From Pyrinomonadaceae bacterium (GTDB taxonomy: Bacteria > Acidobacteriota > Blastocatellia > Pyrinomonadales > Pyrinomonadaceae), in assembly GCA_021228405.1 (NCBI GenBank), contig JAJQRF010000006.1, positions 1-64,000 on the forward strand: 64,000 nt of DNA, given 5' to 3'. Shown in pieces: positions 8,006 to 17,252 of this stretch. The position numbers and the translations under genes were made by a program. The notes under the pieces are model-generated. The model made no database searches, had not been told where the DNA came from, and saw only the letters and a list, made by a program, of their open reading frames with translations. How positions within the stretch are numbered: the first letter of the stretch is position 1; each line of letters begins with the position of its first letter.

Positions 8006-9460
8006 TTATTGAACGAAAACATTCGGAATCGGTTTGTCGGTGCTGATTCCGAACGACTGCGCACTTAATGCACTCGTTCCGCTCATCCTCAAATACCAAT
8101 TGCCGTTGCGGAAAATCCCGATGTCGGCTTTGCCGTCGCTGTCATAGTCGCCGGTAATCGGCAAATCGGTGCTTAATCCCCAATTGTAGAAAACTGCCGT
8201 GTTGTTCGATGATTGTTTGATATACCAAACGCCGTTTCTGAAAACCGCTAAGTCGGTCTTAGCATCGCCGTCGTAATCGGCAAGGACGAATTTATCGGTC
8301 GAAAGTCCCCAACGATCGATGACGAAAGCATTATCCGAACTGCGCAGGATATACCAGACATTAGTTGAAGGACGAAAAACCGCCGCATCCGTTTTGCCGT
8401 CGCCATCGAAATCGCCGCGCATCGGTTTATCTCCGCTTGTGCCCCAAGGAACGAAATTGACGATACCCGACGGATTGTTCAAACTTCCGCGATAGAAAAA
8501 ATAGCTTTGCGAACCGAACGCCGAATCGCGGTAAACAGCCGGATCGGTTTTGCCGTCGCCGTCCCAGTCACCGACGATAAAAGGCACATCGCCCGTTTGA
8601 CCGAATTGCTCGAACCGAACCGTATTGTTCGACGATTGTAAAATATAAAAACCTGCTACAAGCGGCGCACCCGCACGCCAAACGGCGATGTCGGTTTTAT
8701 CGTCGCCGTCGAAATCGGCGGGCGTTAAAATGTCTGTCGCCATTCCGAAAGCAGTCGAACTAAGTTGATTGGTTGCGCTTCGGTTCACATACCAGTTTGA
8801 ATCGGTTGCGCGAAAAACTGAAAAGTCGGATTTTCCGTCACCGTCGAAATCGGAAAAAACGTGATGATTGATAACTGTCGTTGTGCCGGGTTGGATGGTC
8901 ACGCTTGTCGTGTATGTCTGATCTCCGCTTTCGTTTCCATCGTTATCGCATTGCAATCCGGCGGCATAAAAAGTGACCGCGCCGACATCGGTTACAGGTG
9001 CAGTCCAGTTAAATGTCCAGATCGCGCCGCCCGTTTGATTTGGAAACGTGCCCGAACCGCTCTGCTCGATGTAAGATTTCGTACCGCTTGCACGAACGCG
9101 TGTCGTCGCCGGCGGAGTCGGAAAACTTCCCGCCATCGCTGCGCCCGCCAGTGGAATCAATTCAAATCCCCAAGCTTGACGCGATGTATCGGTCGTGACG
9201 TGCTTGACCTGAATTTGATATGTTTGTCCGGGCACATAACTGCTTGGCGCAACGATCGAAAACTGTCCCGATTGACTGTTGGGTGAATGACAACTCGTGC
9301 AGGTGCTCTCGCCCGGCGCGCCTGTTCGAGCGGTCGGCGGACCTGAGATCGAAGCGTGCGCCGATTCCGAAAATCGATCACCGAATGCAAATGTCAAAAT
9401 GCCTATTCCTGTAACTATAAATAAAACCGCAACTTTAATTTTTATTATTAACAACTTCAT
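8006..9460 (-). CDS. Exported protein with c-heme motif, Reeler-like domain and FG-GAP repeats
   Basis: 484 residues. An N-terminal hydrophobic helix (about 8-26) is followed by a single CxxCH motif, C54-T-S-C57-H58, the attachment signature of c-type heme. Residues about 60-195 resemble the Reelin-like / choice-of-anchor V domain that often follows a CxxCH in soil and aquatic bacteria (SYVPGQTYQIQV, GFELIPL, FNWTAP). Six or so FG-GAP/VCBS units with DFDGDGKTD follow. The start is supported by AGGTGA six bases upstream of the ATG. It is likely a secreted or envelope redox or binding protein. The FG-GAP module is near-identical in style to those at 403-2937 and 15177-17252. Heme attachment is inferred from the motif only. 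Confidence 0.85.
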   Translation of the reverse strand: MKLLIIKIKVAVLFIVTGIGILTFAFGDRFSESAHASISGPPTARTGAPGESTCTSCHSPNSQSGQFSIVAPSSYVPGQTYQIQVKHVTTDTSRQAWGFELIPLAGAAMAGSFPTPPATTRVRASGTKSYIEQSGSGTFPNQTGGAIWTFNWTAPVTDVGAVTFYAAGLQCDNDGNESGDQTYTTSVTIQPGTTTVINHHVFSDFDGDGKSDFSVFRATDSNWYVNRSATNQLSSTAFGMATDILTPADFDGDDKTDIAVWRAGAPLVAGFYILQSSNNTVRFEQFGQTGDVPFIVGDWDGDGKTDPAVYRDSAFGSQSYFFYRGSLNNPSGIVNFVPWGTSGDKPMRGDFDGDGKTDAAVFRPSTNVWYILRSSDNAFVIDRWGLSTDKFVLADYDGDAKTDLAVFRNGVWYIKQSSNNTAVFYNWGLSTDLPITGDYDSDGKADIGIFRNGNWYLRMSGTSALSAQSFGISTDKPIPNVFVQ

Positions 9461-9940: not shown

Positions 9941-10013
9941 TGAGTCGTGCAGGGATCGAACCTGCGACCCGAAGATTAAGAGTCTTCTGCTCTACCGACT
10001 GAGCTAACGACCC
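9941..10013 (-). tRNA. tRNA-Lys (anticodon CTT)
   Basis: A 73-base minus-strand cloverleaf. The acceptor stem GGGTCGT pairs with ACGACTC (one G-U). The D arm is GCTC...GAGC and the anticodon stem GAAGA/TCTTC has loop CTCTTAA, so the anticodon is CTT (plus-strand 9978-9980), reading AAG. The T arm is GCAGG-TTCGATC-CCTGC. The discriminator is A and CCA is not encoded. Confidence 0.97.
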
Positions 10014-10129: not shown

Positions 10130-11758
10130 ATGAAAGAATGCCCGAAATGTGAAAATTGCTTTGCGGACGATGTGAATTTTTGCCCGCACGACCAATCACA
10201 AACGCGCCTTACTCTTCCCGGCGATCAGCTTTTGGCAAAACGTTATTTTTTGGAAAAACGCCTCGGTCGCGGCGCGATGGGACAGGTGTATCTTGCCAGA
10301 GATAAAAAGTTCGACACGCGGCGTGTTGCCATCAAAACGGTTCGCCAGGACATTTTGAACAGTGAAGATTTGCAGGAAGGCGAAGCGATTGCGCGGTTTG
10401 AGCGCGAAGCTCAGGCGGCGGCTTCGATTCAACATCCGAACACGGTGAGTGTGACCGATTACGGCGAATCCGAAGAAGGCATTTTTTATCTCGTGATGGA
10501 ATATGTCGAGGGCGAAACACTTCACCGTTTGTTACGCCGCGAAGGGACTTTGCCCGTCAAACGCGCAGTTCGTTTGCTACGGCAGATCGCGGACGGCGTT
10601 GAAGCCGCGCACGAAGTCGGGATTTTGCACCGCGATCTGAAACCTGCCAACATTTTCATAATGTCGAAAGGCAAAGGCGACGGCTTTATCAAAGTCGGAG
10701 ATTTCGGTTTGGCGAAGATCGTCAATCAAACTGTCACCGACATCAGTTCAAATGCCACGCCTTCGTCACGCGGGATTGTCGGAACACCCGAATTTATGGC
10801 TCCCGAACAAATGCAACCCGAAATCGGAGTTGACCTTCGGGCGGATATTTATGCCCTCGGTACGATCGCTTATTTGATGCTCGGCGGAAAAACGCCTTTT
10901 ACGGGCGATCTGATGCAGCTCGTGATGCAGAAAATAATGCACAAACCCGCGCCGCTTTCCACTTTGCGAACTGATATTCCGAGCGATGTCGAGCGGGTGA
11001 TTATGAAATCACTCGAGATCGACGCGAATAATCGTCAAAAGAACGTTTCCGAATGGATCACCCAACTCGAAGAAGCCGCCGAAGATGTGTCCGAGAATTC
11101 AAAATCCGGAACTTCGCGTCTGGTGATTATGGCTCCGATCAATGCCGAAGTTTACGTGAACGACGAAAGAAAGGGAAGCATCGGAAGTTCGGGACGTTTG
11201 GTCTTGAATTCGATTCCGGCGGGTCAGCACATTTTAAGAGTTTCAAAAACGGGCGAAAAAGATGATGAACGCGTAATCGAAGTTCAGGAAGGTTCAGGCG
11301 AACAGGTGATTCAGGCGCAGTTGAAACCTTTTCAGGGAAGCCAGAGCCAGCCTTCACCGTCGCAGGGAAGCAGTAGCGGAATGGCGCAATCGAGTATTAT
11401 GCCCGGGATCGTTGCCTGCACAAACTGCAAATCGCGTTTTGCCGAAGGCGTGAAATTCTGCGGTCGCTGCGGAAATCGTTCGTTCGTCTTGGTCAGTCCG
11501 GGCGAAGCGATGCAGAATTCCTTTCCGTGTCCGCGTTGTTCGACGAGCCTTCCGCCGAACTCGAAATTTTGCGGTCGTTGCGGTTTGAGTCTAACCCAGG
11601 CACAGGCAAATCCCGCCGTAAATACGAGAGCCGTCGGCTTTATGGGCGGTGTTGCAACAAATCAGCCGCGACAGGCTGAAAAGGTTTGCCAGCGTTGCGG
11701 CGGAACCTTTCCGCCGAACATTAAATTTTGCGGTCGATGCGGCAATAGTCTACACTGA
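10130..11758 (+). CDS. Ser/Thr protein kinase with zinc ribbons and PEGA domain
   Basis: 542 residues, no membrane segment, so probably cytosolic. It opens with a zinc ribbon (C4xxC7...C18 with H20). An intact Hanks-type kinase domain follows at about 40-290: glycine loop GRGAMG 46-51, VAIK Lys69, HRD 167-169, DFG 191-193 and APE-like APEQ. Residues about 329-398 form a PEGA domain (LVIMAPINAEVYVNDE). The C terminus has three ribbons of the form CxxC...FCGRCG, starting at C430, C467 and C520. It begins a plus-strand block of four genes that share such ribbons. Targets are unknown. Catalytic activity is likely because all key residues are present. Confidence 0.93.
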   Translation: MKECPKCENCFADDVNFCPHDQSQTRLTLPGDQLLAKRYFLEKRLGRGAMGQVYLARDKKFDTRRVAIKTVRQDILNSEDLQEGEAIARFEREAQAAASIQHPNTVSVTDYGESEEGIFYLVMEYVEGETLHRLLRREGTLPVKRAVRLLRQIADGVEAAHEVGILHRDLKPANIFIMSKGKGDGFIKVGDFGLAKIVNQTVTDISSNATPSSRGIVGTPEFMAPEQMQPEIGVDLRADIYALGTIAYLMLGGKTPFTGDLMQLVMQKIMHKPAPLSTLRTDIPSDVERVIMKSLEIDANNRQKNVSEWITQLEEAAEDVSENSKSGTSRLVIMAPINAEVYVNDERKGSIGSSGRLVLNSIPAGQHILRVSKTGEKDDERVIEVQEGSGEQVIQAQLKPFQGSQSQPSPSQGSSSGMAQSSIMPGIVACTNCKSRFAEGVKFCGRCGNRSFVLVSPGEAMQNSFPCPRCSTSLPPNSKFCGRCGLSLTQAQANPAVNTRAVGFMGGVATNQPRQAEKVCQRCGGTFPPNIKFCGRCGNSLH

Positions 11759-11859
11759 TTTTCCCCTGCCGTTTTCCCGCATTTATCAATTTCAAGTTAA
11801 ATGCCGTATAATAAAATCATTAGTTGTATTTCCTTATAAAATACCAAGGAACGCAAAAA

Positions 11860-12792
11860 ATGAAAGTTTGCCCTAATTGCCAGCGCACTTATCCTGATGA
11901 CGATCTGAATTTTTGTCTTGATGACGGTTCGATTCTCACACAGACCGGCGCATATAATTCACCGCCGCCGACCGTGAAAATCAATCAGCCGCCGACGACC
12001 GCACCGAATACGAGTTTTGGCAATGAAAACCCGGGTCAATTTAGTCAATATCAACCGCAGGGTTATTCGATGCAGCCGCCAAAGTCTTCAAAAACCTGGG
12101 TTTGGGTTTTGGGAATATTAGGTTTGGCGGTCTTGATCTGCGGCGGCGGTTTTGTCGGTTTCGTCGCGTGGGTCGGCACTTTGGACACGAACACTAATCG
12201 AAATAATAATAATTCGACGATTTCAAACGTCACGAATCCGACTCCGAACGACCGCACGAGTATACAAACGATCGATCTTTCAAAATGGGTGCAGGGTGAT
12301 AATCAATACGGCATTACCGAATACAAGGGCGGTGAGTTTGTTATGAGTTCAAAGCAGAAGGGATTTTATTATGTTTTGATCGCCAAGAAAGATTACAAAA
12401 CCGAGAATGCGACCACCAGAGTCAGCGTCAGAAACGTCGATAATGCCAATACGAGTCTTGGTTTCGGTTTGGTTGTTCACAGCAATCCGACACCGCTTTT
12501 ACAGGATTACGCTTTTTTGATCGATTCGGTCAAGAAAAAATACCGCATCACTTACCACGAGCCGGGTAAGGAAAACGAGGTCACGAAATGGACGGGTTCG
12601 ACCGCGATCAAAGACGGAACTCAACAGAATATCCTCGAAGTCCGTGATGCCGACGGCAAGATGGATTTTTACATCAATGGAACTTTCATCACGTCGGTGC
12701 GTAATGTTTACGGGTATAAGGACGGCGTTGCCGGGATTTATTCGGGTGATAAAGTAAATATTGCCTTTTCAGGTTTTCAGATAAGCAGATAA
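11860..12792 (+). CDS. Zinc-ribbon membrane protein with LamG-like extracytoplasmic domain
   Basis: 310 residues from the ATG at 11860, chosen because AAGGA lies nine bases upstream and because the protein then starts directly with its ribbon. The N-terminal ribbon is MKVCPNCQRTYPDDDLNFC. A Pro/Gln-rich linker (about 30-80) leads to one membrane helix (WVWVLGILGLAVLICGGGF). After a polar linker, the last 170 residues look like a beta-sandwich of the LamG / DUF1080 type (GFGLVVHSNP, YRITYHEPG, MDFYINGTFI). The topology implied is ribbon inside, sugar- or ligand-binding domain outside. It lies between two kinase genes, which suggests a role as sensor or adaptor; this is inference. Confidence 0.75.
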   Translation: MKVCPNCQRTYPDDDLNFCLDDGSILTQTGAYNSPPPTVKINQPPTTAPNTSFGNENPGQFSQYQPQGYSMQPPKSSKTWVWVLGILGLAVLICGGGFVGFVAWVGTLDTNTNRNNNNSTISNVTNPTPNDRTSIQTIDLSKWVQGDNQYGITEYKGGEFVMSSKQKGFYYVLIAKKDYKTENATTRVSVRNVDNANTSLGFGLVVHSNPTPLLQDYAFLIDSVKKKYRITYHEPGKENEVTKWTGSTAIKDGTQQNILEVRDADGKMDFYINGTFITSVRNVYGYKDGVAGIYSGDKVNIAFSGFQISR

Positions 12793-12811
12793 CTCAAACT
12801 ATTAATATCCT

Positions 12812-13309
12812 ATGAAGGTTTGTCCAAAATGTAACCAAACTTATACAGACGAAAATCTGAATTTTTGTTTGAACGACGGCGAATTTTTAATGCAGAAGGC
12901 GGACGATGCGCCGCCGACCATTTTGATGAACGAGCCGCGCGTCACGAACCAGACTAAATGGCAGACACCGCCTTATCAACCGCCCGCGACCTGGCAAAAT
13001 CAGCCGCAGGGAATGCAGAATCAGCAATTCGGCTCAAGTTTGATGGTAAACAAACAAGATCAAACCCTGCCGATTGTTTCTTTGGTTTTAGGTGTGCTAA
13101 GTTGGATTTTAATATGCTGTTACGGCGGGTTTTGGTTGGGAATTCCCGCCGTTATCGTCGGCTATCTCGGGATGGTGAACGCCGATAAAAACCCGAACCG
13201 CTACACCGGGAAAGGTATGGCGATTGCCGGGATGATAATCGGCGGCGTGAGTCTGCTGGCGGCAATCGTGATTTTGATATTGGGTGTGATAGGAAACTTA
13301 GGAAGATAG
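12812..13309 (+). CDS. Zinc-ribbon DUF4190-like membrane protein
   Basis: 165 residues. It starts with a ribbon (MKVCPKCNQTYTDENLNFC) almost the same as the one in the preceding protein. A Pro/Gln-rich linker follows, then a DUF4190-like pair of membrane helices (PIVSLVLGVLSWILICCYG and MAIAGMIIGGVSLLAAIVIL). The gene lies 19 bp after its neighbour and 22 bp before the FHA kinase, so co-transcription is likely. Function is unknown. Confidence 0.75.
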   Translation: MKVCPKCNQTYTDENLNFCLNDGEFLMQKADDAPPTILMNEPRVTNQTKWQTPPYQPPATWQNQPQGMQNQQFGSSLMVNKQDQTLPIVSLVLGVLSWILICCYGGFWLGIPAVIVGYLGMVNADKNPNRYTGKGMAIAGMIIGGVSLLAAIVILILGVIGNLGR

Positions 13310-13331
13310 AATTCTCTATAAAATTATTTAG

Positions 13332-14648
13332 ATGCGTGTAACACTGCGCGTGGTGGCGGGTCCTCAAACGGGGCGCGTTTTCACGTTTGACCAACACGAA
13401 ACTTTTATGATCGGGCGAAGCGAAGATTCACATTTTTGCTTGCCGCACGACCGTTTTTTTTCAAGGCATCACTGCATTTTGGAAATTGCGCCGCCCCAAA
13501 CCTTTTTACGCGATCTCGGTTCGACGAACGGCACCTTTGTAAATGGGATTCGCGTCGAAACCGCGCATCTCAAGAACGGCGACCGCATTCAGGGCGGTGA
13601 AACCGTTCTCGAAGTCGAAGTTACCGCCGATCAATCCGATATTCATTCATCGATTCCGCAATATCAGGTGCACACCGAGCCTTCGCTCGTGACGATCCAG
13701 TGTTTGAACTGCGGAATTCCGTCGCAGGCGGAAGTTTCCAAACCCGATGCAAAACTTTCATACGTTTGCGATAACTGCCGCGAAATTCTGAAGAAAAATC
13801 CGCAACCGATTCCGGGTTATCAGATGATCCGCGTGCTCGGACAGGGCGGAATGGGCAGTGTGATGCTGGCGCGGGCGGTCAAAGACGGTCGTCCGGTGGC
13901 GATCAAAACGCTTTTGCCCGAAGTTGCGGTCAGCGAACAATCGCTGGCGCGTTTTATGCGCGAGATCGAAGTTTCGGCAACCTTACAGCATCCGAACATC
14001 GTCAGCTATCTGGAACACGGAACACATAACGGCATAGTTTATCTGGTGACGGAATTTGTGAGCGGGATGGATGCTTCAAAACTGGCAAAGCACCGCGGCG
14101 GAAAGTTGAGTTATCAGGAAGTCGTCAAGATCATCGAGCAGACGCTTGCCGCGCTCGACTTTGCGCATAATCTCGGTTTCGTACACCGCGACATCAAAGA
14201 GCAGAACATTTTAGTTGAGGGAAATTTCCCGAATTACCGCGCCAAACTGACCGATTTCGGCTTGGCAAAAAGCTTCAAACAAACGGGAATGAGCGGCGTG
14301 ACGATGGTTGGTGACGTGGCGGGAACGATCGCATATATGCCGCCCGAACAGGTCAGAGATTTCAAGGAAGTTCGCCCGCCGTCCGATATTTACGCGGTCG
14401 GAATGACGGCTTACAGTCTTTTGACCGGTGCTCACGCGCTCGACATCAGCCCGCGCGCAGGAATTTCCGAAACGGTCAAGGCAATTTTTGAAAAACCGAT
14501 CATCCCGATCGTGCAGAGAATTCCCGAGATACCGATTCGTGTTTCCGCCGTTATCGAAACGGCAATCGCCAAACAGGTCGAACTCCGCTGGCGCACCGCC
14601 GGAGAAATGCGTGAGGCACTTTTACGTGCCGTTTCGGAGTTTAGATAA
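13332..14648 (+). CDS. FHA-domain Ser/Thr protein kinase
   Basis: 438 residues with three parts in order. An FHA phosphothreonine-binding domain (about 5-95) has the signature residues GRS 28-30, SRHH 44-47 and GSTNGT 63-68. A zinc ribbon has C124, C127, C146 and C149. A Hanks kinase domain (about 162-437) has the glycine loop GQGGMG 170-175, Lys192, HRD 285-287 and DFG 308-310. No membrane segment is visible. An FHA domain fused N-terminally to a kinase is uncommon. It could let the kinase dock on its own or another kinase's phosphorylated form. It is last in the four-gene ribbon block and is followed by a terminator. No strong ribosome-binding site precedes the ATG. Confidence 0.93.
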   Translation: MRVTLRVVAGPQTGRVFTFDQHETFMIGRSEDSHFCLPHDRFFSRHHCILEIAPPQTFLRDLGSTNGTFVNGIRVETAHLKNGDRIQGGETVLEVEVTADQSDIHSSIPQYQVHTEPSLVTIQCLNCGIPSQAEVSKPDAKLSYVCDNCREILKKNPQPIPGYQMIRVLGQGGMGSVMLARAVKDGRPVAIKTLLPEVAVSEQSLARFMREIEVSATLQHPNIVSYLEHGTHNGIVYLVTEFVSGMDASKLAKHRGGKLSYQEVVKIIEQTLAALDFAHNLGFVHRDIKEQNILVEGNFPNYRAKLTDFGLAKSFKQTGMSGVTMVGDVAGTIAYMPPEQVRDFKEVRPPSDIYAVGMTAYSLLTGAHALDISPRAGISETVKAIFEKPIIPIVQRIPEIPIRVSAVIETAIAKQVELRWRTAGEMREALLRAVSEFR

Positions 14649-15176: not shown

Positions 15177-17252
15177 TTATTGCTGAAAAGCCGCCGTTGT
15201 CGGGATGTCGGTCGAAGTTCCGAACGACGAGAACGAAAGACTTCCGTTTGAACTGTTGATGATATACCAGGTTCCGTTTGACGGTCGGAAAACCGCAACA
15301 TCGTCTTTTCCGTCGCCGTCAAAATCTCCGGCGGCGGGTTTATCGGTCGCGTTTCCGAATGCGACTGCCGCAAATCCGGCGGTCGAACGCATCTGATACC
15401 AGTTTCCGTCGCGGTAAACCGAAATATCCGTTTTGTTGTCGCCGTCGAAATCGACTGCCACGGGTTTATCGGTCGCCGTTCCGAAGGCAACTGCCTTGAA
15501 ACCTTGCTGTGACTGCAAAATATACCAGTTTCCGTTACGATACACGGCAACGTCGGCTTTATTGTCGCCGTCGTAATCGGCGGCGACGGGCTTGTCGGTC
15601 GCAATACCGAAATTGACCGCTGCGAAACCTTCGGTCGATTTAAGCAGATACCACGCGCCGTTCGACGGGCGGAAAACCGCAATGTCGGCTTTACCGTCGC
15701 CGTCAAAATCTTCGGGTTGCGGAATGTCGCCCGCCGTTCCGAACGAAACAGCCGAAAATCCTGCCGTTGAACGGTTCAGATACCAATTGCCGTCACGGAA
15801 AACCGCAACGTCGGTTTTGCCGTCGCCGTCGTAATCGGCGGGAACGATCTTGTCGGTCGCGTTTCCGAATGCGACTGCCGCGAATCCGGCGGTCGAACGG
15901 TTCAGATACCAATTGCCGTTATCGGGACGAAACACCGAAACATCGGTTTTTGAATCGCCGTCATAATCCATCCGGGCACGCGTCGGAGCGGCGGAAACGA
16001 TCGAACCTTTCGCCAGTTCGCCGACATAAGAAAGCGCGAGCTTGGCAAATTTGACGGCGTGGTTGGCGTTGCTTCCGCTTTGTGCGAGCGTGTCGTTGGC
16101 GGAATGGATAAACGGATTATCTTCGGAAATACCCGAAGCAAAACGCGCCTCGAACGGCATCGAAGCCGGAAATCCTTTATTAAACCAAGAAGCGTGATCG
16201 GAGCAAGCGTAACCGCACCTGCCGTTCGCCGCATCGTTCGTAACACTCAAAGTCGGCTGATAGGTCGTGACGAGATTGGCAATGAACTGATTCTGCGCCG
16301 CATTCGTGAAATCGTTTATCAGAACGATGTCAACGAGTGAGCCTTTATAATTCGTCATATCCAACTGCATCACGCCGACGACATTTACGCCGCGCGTTTG
16401 ATGATCGGTTGCAATCGCATTCGAGCCGCGAAGCCCGACTTCTTCAGCCGCGTAAGCCATAAATTTGACGGTTCTTTGCGGTCGGAAATTTTTTGCCATC
16501 AAAACCCTGATCGTTTCCGTGATCGTCGCAATTCCCGAAGCGTCGTCGTCCGCACCCGGCGCGTTCAATGTCGCGCCGCCCGTGTTGATCGAATCCTGAT
16601 GACCGCCGATGACGACGACTTCGCTCGGCAAAGTCGTGCCCTGAATGGTCATAATGATCGAAGGTTGCGGCGAAGTTGCGGTCGGGTGCGTGAAAAATTC
16701 GACCGTCACATCACTGCGTCCGGCGGCTAATGCCGTCCATTTGTCTTTGATCCAGTTTGCCGAATTCGTTCCGCTCGTTTGATTGTAACGACGGTTCGGG
16801 AAAGCGGCGAGATCGACGATCACCTGTCTGAGCGTCGGTTCCTGCACGTCGGCGAGCAAGGGCGTAACGTTCGAGGCGTTGTTGATCGTGTAATCGACCA
16901 GATTTTCGGTCGTTCGCGCACTAAGGGTTTCGCTGATCGATTGAACGGCTTGTTCGTATCGGTCAAACGACATAAAGCCCGAACATTTGTGATATTCGTG
17001 GTGCATTTCCCGCGAAAGATCGAGAATCTGCAGTTCGTCGGCTTTGATGATCGCCAGCCCGTCGCGGACTTCGACGACCTCGAAATTAAACTTTCCGTTG
17101 CTGTCGATGGTTTTCAATTCGTTTTCATCGATAGTTACCCAGAAAATCGGGCGTTCTGCGGTCGCATTAAATTGTTTGGTCGCAAAAAAAACAAATACGA
17201 AAAGACAGACTACACTGGCACAAATGGCAGTAAATTTAAAGAATTTAGACAA
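15177..17252 (-). CDS. Exported M28 zinc aminopeptidase with FG-GAP repeats
   Basis: 691 residues. The signal-anchor is at about 5-24. The M28 peptidase domain (about 135-415) has all metal and catalytic residues by motif: H218 in GGHQDS, D235 in PGADDD, E270/E271 in AAEEVG, D298 and H383 in FIHSANDT. A C346/C350 pair in CGYAC matches the disulfide of Vibrio-type leucyl aminopeptidase. After this come about seven FG-GAP/VCBS units with DxDGDGKxD and GNWY. It probably hydrolyses N-terminal residues of peptides outside the cell. The start is a TTG preceded by GGAGG (17258-17262) at 5-base spacing; no ATG fits better. Confidence 0.93.
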   Translation of the reverse strand: MSKFFKFTAICASVVCLFVFVFFATKQFNATAERPIFWVTIDENELKTIDSNGKFNFEVVEVRDGLAIIKADELQILDLSREMHHEYHKCSGFMSFDRYEQAVQSISETLSARTTENLVDYTINNASNVTPLLADVQEPTLRQVIVDLAAFPNRRYNQTSGTNSANWIKDKWTALAAGRSDVTVEFFTHPTATSPQPSIIMTIQGTTLPSEVVVIGGHQDSINTGGATLNAPGADDDASGIATITETIRVLMAKNFRPQRTVKFMAYAAEEVGLRGSNAIATDHQTRGVNVVGVMQLDMTNYKGSLVDIVLINDFTNAAQNQFIANLVTTYQPTLSVTNDAANGRCGYACSDHASWFNKGFPASMPFEARFASGISEDNPFIHSANDTLAQSGSNANHAVKFAKLALSYVGELAKGSIVSAAPTRARMDYDGDSKTDVSVFRPDNGNWYLNRSTAGFAAVAFGNATDKIVPADYDGDGKTDVAVFRDGNWYLNRSTAGFSAVSFGTAGDIPQPEDFDGDGKADIAVFRPSNGAWYLLKSTEGFAAVNFGIATDKPVAADYDGDNKADVAVYRNGNWYILQSQQGFKAVAFGTATDKPVAVDFDGDNKTDISVYRDGNWYQMRSTAGFAAVAFGNATDKPAAGDFDGDGKDDVAVFRPSNGTWYIINSSNGSLSFSSFGTSTDIPTTAAFQQ

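Follow-up and report, generated by a model that had tools for sequence, protein, structure and literature searches.

Four consecutive open reading frames (ORFs) on the (+) strand, at 10130-14648 of a 64,000-nt stretch of DNA from a Pyrinomonadaceae bacterium (the window; part of contig C5 in a 5.72 Mb genome), encode two Ser/Thr kinases and, between them, two membrane proteins that begin with a ribbon of three cysteines and an aspartate. The original prediction, made from the sequence of the window, had described four neighbouring genes with a ribbon module around two kinases, and all four ORFs lie where it had placed them, on the (+) strand. We found that one Acidobacteriota family, given as Pyrinomonadaceae in several named records, has conserved the gene order of this cluster, that the fourth protein carries an FHA domain, a feature absent from the prediction, and that the linker behind the ribbon of the membrane proteins holds a conserved Thr, likewise new, which looks like a candidate phosphorylation tag. 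The cluster is probably a small signalling module and not a set of four unrelated neighbours. Its genes are the following:

10130-11758 (+): kinase 1 (K1), with an N-terminal ribbon, a Ser/Thr kinase domain, a weak PEGA-like region and three C-terminal ribbons of four cysteines (CCCC)
11860-12792 (+): ribbon membrane protein A (protein 2), with a ribbon, a disordered linker with the Thr motif, one membrane helix and a predicted concanavalin/CBM66-like outer domain
12812-13309 (+): ribbon membrane protein B (protein 3), with a ribbon, a linker with the Thr motif and a DUF4190 membrane domain
13332-14648 (+): kinase 2 (FHAK, protein 4), with an FHA domain, an internal CCCC ribbon and a Ser/Thr kinase domain

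FHAK orthologues with 58-85% identity were present, among the matches listed, in 13 of 24 other genomes of the family; across 119 family genomes (own genome counted), FHAK was found in 82, representing 16 of 29 genera. It occurs once per positive genome, except that G127 shows a further, partial match at the edge of a contig. For 15 genomes of other families in the class, the best FHAK match among those listed was no better than 1e-46, and nearly all of these matches covered the kinase domain only, the exception (G037:C107) corresponding to residues 8-368 of FHAK with two internal stops.

Gene order was followed by tblastn and blastp in the regions of 13 relatives and in 15 named loci (L059-L073; recorded as Acidobacteria, Acidobacteriota, Pyrinomonadaceae or Blastocatellia), leaving out L068 and L073 (duplicates of L047 and L048) and L063 (where the contig begins inside FHAK), so that 25 loci remained. 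Kinase 1 lies upstream of FHAK on the same strand at 24 of these 25 loci, and at the 25th (L047) the contig ends; three of the 24 copies are partial at contig edges (L041, L044 and L061), and at L065 approximately 4.6 kb separates kinase 1 from protein A. All 25 loci have one or more ribbon membrane genes immediately before FHAK; some carry both A and B, others just one of the two. FHAK begins about -4 to 110 bp after the last membrane gene, and the gap behind kinase 1 is 25 to 949 bp (20 rows, window included and one locus represented twice; a value of -32 at L050 stems from an over-long ORF start), with a stop/start overlap of the membrane gene and FHAK in two relatives (L070 and L048/L073). 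Conserved synteny had been named as a check of the original prediction, and the order is indeed kept in relatives whose FHAK is down to 58% identical. Because the order is conserved, the two kinases and their membrane partners are well supported as one unit, and it is this part of the predicted small signalling system that stands.

The ribbons and Thr motifs of the two membrane proteins map as follows:

11869-11925 (+): ribbon of protein A (C4, C7, C19, D22), invariant in 14/14 sequences
12821-12877 (+): ribbon of protein B (C4, C7, C19, D22), from the genome pattern search
11971-12000 (+): Thr motif of protein A, T38-V-K-I..T46-T47, the short form without Arg, from the linker comparison
12917-12946 (+): Thr motif of protein B, the full form T36-I-L-M-N-E-P-R-V-T45, from the linker comparison

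Both ribbons have the form C-P-x-C-x11-C-x2-D (C4-x2-C7-x11-C19-x2-D22), and all four residues are invariant in the 14 aligned protein A sequences. Searched without the Asp requirement, this pattern gave 10 sites in the 5.72 Mb genome and 0 in the reversed control; requiring the Asp returned the same 10 sites, so that Asp is fourth in 10 of 10. At this cluster, a stretch of 2.8 kb contains three of the ten. With Asp in the fourth position, the unit is not of the classical CCCC type (Zn_ribbon/DZR), and Pfam gave protein A no more than a sub-threshold DUF7575 match. Judged by its residues, the N-terminal ribbon of A and B differs from the classical four-Cys zinc ribbon and is a candidate metal site.

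Behind the ribbon, we compared the linkers at 26 loci, counting the window, with 37 membrane proteins in all (the L049 protein was grouped with DUF4190 by its ribbon alone, and protein A of L072 is interrupted downstream, its linker being counted). A short motif, T-[VILM]-x-[MYFLVI], to which the full form adds x3-R-x-T, was defined after inspection of these proteins. The short form is present in 36 of the 37 linkers and the full form in 30 (shuffle means of 4.1-4.2 and 0.014, respectively, which overstate the evidence because the 37 rows are related), while the Ser and Ala equivalents each occur in 1 of 37. In these otherwise variable linkers, the start of the motif lies 12 to 31 residues past the ribbon; rigid spacing cannot explain it at such varying distances, and a spacing that shifts while the motif stays argues for selection on the Thr motif itself. 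An acidic residue stands within 6 positions upstream of the Thr in 33 of 36 cases, most commonly at -4, vs 47% for other S/T/N/Q/A positions. In the excerpted text of a review, the Mycobacterium tuberculosis kinase motif is given as acidic residues, T, X, (X/V), a large hydrophobic residue, (P/R) and I (PMC6888350), and an excerpt of another source states that FHA domains mostly recognise phosphothreonine (pThr), with extra specificity at +3 (PMC4157861). The upstream acidic residues and the hydrophobic +3 position of the linkers fit both the mycobacterial kinase motif and pThr recognition by FHA domains. Conservation of Thr alone would be expected from a pThr reader and would not be required by a kinase alone.

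Such a reader is suggested by the domain content of kinase 2:

13407-13592 (+): FHA domain (Pfam FHA, E 8.4e-18; 12-sequence alignment)
13701-13778 (+): internal ribbon (C124, C127, C146, C149), invariant in 12/12
13818-14621 (+): kinase domain, with K192, HRDIK and DFG invariant

In 12 of 12 aligned FHAK sequences, R29, S44, H47 and N66 of the FHA domain are invariant together with the kinase motifs; the assignment of these four residues to the pThr site is our own and putative. Kinase 2 lacks an N-terminal ribbon, its CxxC..CxxC unit being internal, with all four Cys invariant in the 12 sequences and a sub-threshold Pfam ribbon match at 124-152. Three relatives encode, upstream of the cluster, an additional protein (514-565 aa) with a match to the FHA portion of kinase 2 (L043:3492-5189, L060:2498-4093 and L064:1102-2646).

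Three parts of kinase 1 map as follows:

10139-10192 (+): N-terminal ribbon, C4-x2-C7-x2-C10-x7-C18-x2-D21 (alignment n=13; model pLDDT ~92)
10244-11038 (+): kinase domain (Pkinase E 1.3e-47), with HRDLKPAN, DFG and APE present
11417-11740 (+): three C-terminal zinc ribbons (C430-C447, C467-C484, C520-C537), with 12 Cys and a DZR match

Sixteen Cys are invariant in 13 aligned sequences, four of them N-terminal (C4, C7, C10 and C18; D21 is nearly invariant) and 12 C-terminal. The three C-terminal ribbons, which had been predicted for the first kinase, are borne out by all 12 of their Cys in 13/13 sequences and are of the classical CCCC type (DZR, 56.5 bits vs a Pfam cut-off of 27.3). The N-terminal ribbon of kinase 1 has the extra invariant Cys10 and hence is a relative of the A/B unit, not identical to it. 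That three of the four proteins start with nearly the same ribbon, as originally predicted, was seen in the starts themselves (MKECPKC.., MKVCPNC.. and MKVCPKC..); their sameness does not extend to the kinase 1 copy, with its C10, as against three Cys plus Asp in A and B, and the ribbon of protein 4 is internal. With the K, HRD and DFG motifs invariant, both kinases appear catalytically complete by motif. The Pfam scan of the cluster proteins gave no PASTA match of the kind that marks PASTA receptor kinases (PknB/Stk1), and NF033483 matched over the kinase domain only (281 and 217 bits, far under its 450-bit cut-off). In the same genome, the sole other kinase that aligns to kinase 1 from the first residue is L169 (C4:520073-521266), a 759-residue frame with the N-terminus MKECQHCKKCY.. 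and likewise a third Cys at position 10.

Of the two membrane proteins, B passes the Pfam cut-off for DUF4190 (46.3 bits vs 35), which confirms the predicted DUF4190-like neighbour. For protein A, no Pfam domain exceeded its cut-off, the NCBIfam search gave nothing and a sequence search against solved structures gave nothing significant. The predicted LamG-like domain has no sequence family behind it, and what survives is its fold, modelled with AlphaFold2 in the following region:

12265-12789 (+): concanavalin-like outer domain of protein A, residues 136-310 (AlphaFold2 model, closest to CBM66)

In this model, the ribbon has a pLDDT in the 80s, the outer domain 76-98 per ten-residue block and the linker mostly below 50. 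Compared by Foldseek and VIA-align, the outer domain best resembles CBM66 (Z 19.9, root-mean-square deviation 2.3 Å over 156 residues, 12% identity). We conclude that it is a predicted CBM66/concanavalin-like lectin fold; sugar binding does not follow from the fold.

From a parts list, a gene order and a motif that are all sequence-based, we infer a pThr relay at the inner membrane, a reading that we consider evenly poised between right and wrong. Kinase 1 would meet its membrane substrates, perhaps via the ribbons, and would phosphorylate, on the cytosolic side, the Thr of their linkers. Kinase 2 would then bind this pThr through its FHA domain and would in this way be brought to the membrane protein. 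As a surface input, the CBM66-like outer domain of protein A might sense or bind a glycan or wall component and so gate the relay.

Further clients of this relay may be the seven other ribbon proteins of the genome, which comprise an FtsK/SpoIIIE protein, a TonB C-terminal protein, an SH3_3 protein, two NTF2-like (Cds6_C) proteins, a DUF4190 paralogue and one without a family. Most of the seven show a similar Thr motif. The FtsK/SpoIIIE DNA translocase (L055:5610-8219 (-), contig C4) has the same ribbon N-terminally, ahead of a four-transmembrane region, and by eye resembles a ribbon-headed protein of G008 (L207). In the DUF4190 paralogue (L058:6265-7485 (-), contig C20), the ribbon is accompanied by a linker with repeated D-P-[YFL]-K-T motifs. 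The TonB C-terminal protein (L057:7676-8734 (+), contig C18) combines the ribbon with EETIIRRK, and relatives have ribbon proteins similar to it (L203, L211, L231, L236 and L251).

For a wider comparison, we took 58 non-cluster ribbon proteins, a hand-chosen part of those in 12 genomes with kinase 1 (among them all seven of the own genome, all nine of G061 and 3 of 11 of G023), and 28 comparison proteins, i.e., all pattern matches in 15 genomes without a kinase 1 orthologue, eight genomes being chosen among FHAK-negative ones. The ribbon pattern for both sets required the Asp, and L254-L257 (four ribbon genes, other families) were excluded from both. The first five linker residues were also excluded, as DG-[ST]-V-L itself matches [ST][VILM][VILM]. 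The motif T[VILM][VILM], chosen after 46 of the 58 had been inspected, occurred in 33 of the 58 proteins whose genomes have kinase 1 (shuffle 5.5) vs 1 of the 28 whose genomes lack it (shuffle 1.7; Fisher p 8e-7). Its Ser counterpart was found in 5/58 (shuffle 5.4) and 7/28 (shuffle 2.4), as well as in 0/37 cluster proteins, and its Ala counterpart in 11/58 (shuffle 6.2). Counts that include the first five residues, which were set aside, amounted to 36/58 vs 4/28 for T[VILM][VILM] and 10/37 cluster proteins (shuffle 2.9) for S[VILM][VILM].

It is conceivable, though we think the odds are against it, that the three-Cys-plus-Asp ribbon and the Thr motif together form a portable phospho-tag, with a head for recognition by the ribbon kinase and a pThr site for the FHA kinase. 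On an rpoB tree of 26 rows, a single branch (support 93/92) splits the kinase-1-positive genomes (11) from the negative ones (13); the same branch had a support of 81/87 in an earlier tree, in which the G016 row was apparently in the wrong frame, and reached 93/92 after the frame change. The idea that kinase 1 and the Thr motif were gained independently was rejected, as the presence of kinase 1 amounts to one change on this tree, and because one branch separates the two groups of genomes, the association of the Thr motif with kinase 1 is without independent replication.

Beyond the relatedness of the 37 cluster linkers, several observations weigh against the relay. Since kinase 1 presence is a single event, shared ancestry alone could give the motif association. 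Outside the cluster, enrichment of the short form T[VILM]x[MYFLVI] is smaller (23/58, shuffle 6.3, vs 4/28, shuffle 2.3; p 0.025) and the upstream acidic bias is weak (27/36 vs a background of 59%). Within it, protein A of the window reads T-V-K-I with the Arg missing, and the L048 orthologue is without the short motif. G061, which has kinase 1 and ribbon-Thr proteins, gave no FHAK match at 1e-100, and the 1.5 kb behind its kinase 1 contain no cluster gene; as this genome keeps kinase 1 and these proteins without an FHAK match, FHAK is not needed in every genome. FHAK was likewise not found in G005, which has kinase 1 and ribbon-Thr proteins and whose contig ends shortly after kinase 1. Lastly, the number of ribbon genes was rejected as a correlate of FHAK: a relation seen in 24 family genomes (p 0.0005, G005 excluded) was lost in 119 genomes (p 0.28; 0.21 at genus level), where a flat three cluster copies were subtracted from the ribbon count.

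One alternative, the docking suggested in the original prediction, which we judge unlikely, is that the ribbons of kinase 1, the membrane proteins and kinase 2 pair with one another and keep the complex together; the Thr motif would then be incidental, or a structural element of the linker. Docking of this kind is consistent with ribbon Cys that are invariant in the alignments and with the four ribbons kept by kinase 1 and the one kept by kinase 2, but it leaves unexplained the FHA domain and a Thr-specific motif that 36 of 37 linkers keep while its distance from the ribbon changes. A second alternative, also improbable in our estimation, makes kinase 2 both writer and reader, its own kinase phosphorylating the linker Thr and its own FHA domain holding it, while kinase 1 acts elsewhere. 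The layout of the cluster speaks for this: FHAK comes immediately behind the membrane genes, which in two relatives it meets in the stop/start overlap, a spacer of 25-949 bp (or the ~4.6 kb of L065) separates kinase 1 from them and a promoter-like site precedes protein A in the window, though such sites are little above shuffles. Against it stand G061 and G005, with ribbon-Thr proteins and kinase 1 where FHAK was not found (with the contig end in G005). It is very improbable that the ribbon and its tail are a spreading N-terminal cassette, duplicated for localisation or assembly beside kinases that are mere neighbours without a direct role, for while ribbon genes also occur in genomes without kinase 1 or FHAK and the presence of kinase 1 goes back to one event on the tree, the Thr motif is not enriched in genomes without kinase 1 (1/28, shuffle 1.7) and kinase synteny is strongly conserved.

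A recurrent, distinct ribbon protein, MK[QRK]CP[TQ]C[QH]E[DE]F[AT]D[KQ]F[GS]FCPVDG, was observed in family genomes without kinase 1 (L239, L243, L246, L249, L250, L259, L264, L265 and L266), with a T[VILM][VILM] linker only in L259.

Two known systems resemble parts of the proposed pThr relay. According to an excerpt of PMC6180346, mycobacterial PknB phosphorylates MurJ(MviN) and CwlM, and FhaA then binds; as in the relay, phosphorylation of a membrane protein, or of its partner, by a Ser/Thr kinase is followed by the binding of an FHA protein. In that excerpt, however, FhaA is not described as a kinase, PknB is a kinase with PASTA and no ribbon head is mentioned, whereas here the putative reader has a kinase domain of its own, a ribbon-Thr head is common to the clients and there is no PASTA kinase in the cluster. 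The other likeness is an archaeal zinc ribbon-FHA protein encoded in an operon with a calcineurin-like phosphatase (excerpt of PMC7016017), where a zinc ribbon and FHA are united in one protein within a phosphorylation-related operon; the partners named in this excerpt are the phosphatase and a vWA protein, with no kinase or ribbon membrane protein named. FHA-kinase proteins of Planctomycetota and others are 29-42% identical to FHAK, most of them across the full FHA-to-kinase length. Of 65 such loci outside the family, the 30 covered (L074-L103) gave no A or B match at E 1e-4 and no kinase 1 match of at least 150 bits, and no ribbon membrane gene was recognised by eye among the neighbours of 12. 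Among the matches listed, a literature search gave nothing on this cluster and no study of substrate finding by such kinases in Acidobacteriota.

In the window, the start of protein A was taken as the ATG at 11860 (the mechanical ORF list begins at the TTG at 11824), which places it 101 bp behind kinase 1; A and B are separated by 19 bp and B and FHAK by 22 bp. The promoter-like site at 11783-11812 lies between kinase 1 and protein A, and the promoter and terminator scans barely exceed shuffles. The upstream boundary of the cluster is marked by a tRNA gene:

9941-10013 (-): tRNA-Lys(CTT)

FG-GAP repeat proteins are encoded on both sides, at 8006-9460 (-) and 15177-17252 (-), the latter also carrying an M28 peptidase domain, and similar FG-GAP proteins flank the clusters of some relatives.

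The own genome gave 35 Pkinase matches. If the portable phospho-tag were true, one kinase pair would control many unrelated envelope proteins via their cytosolic ends, FtsK included. Moreover, should the ribbon-Thr head serve as a kinase tag, the substrates would be readable directly from the genome, with a defined kinase, reader and site that could be tested with peptides.

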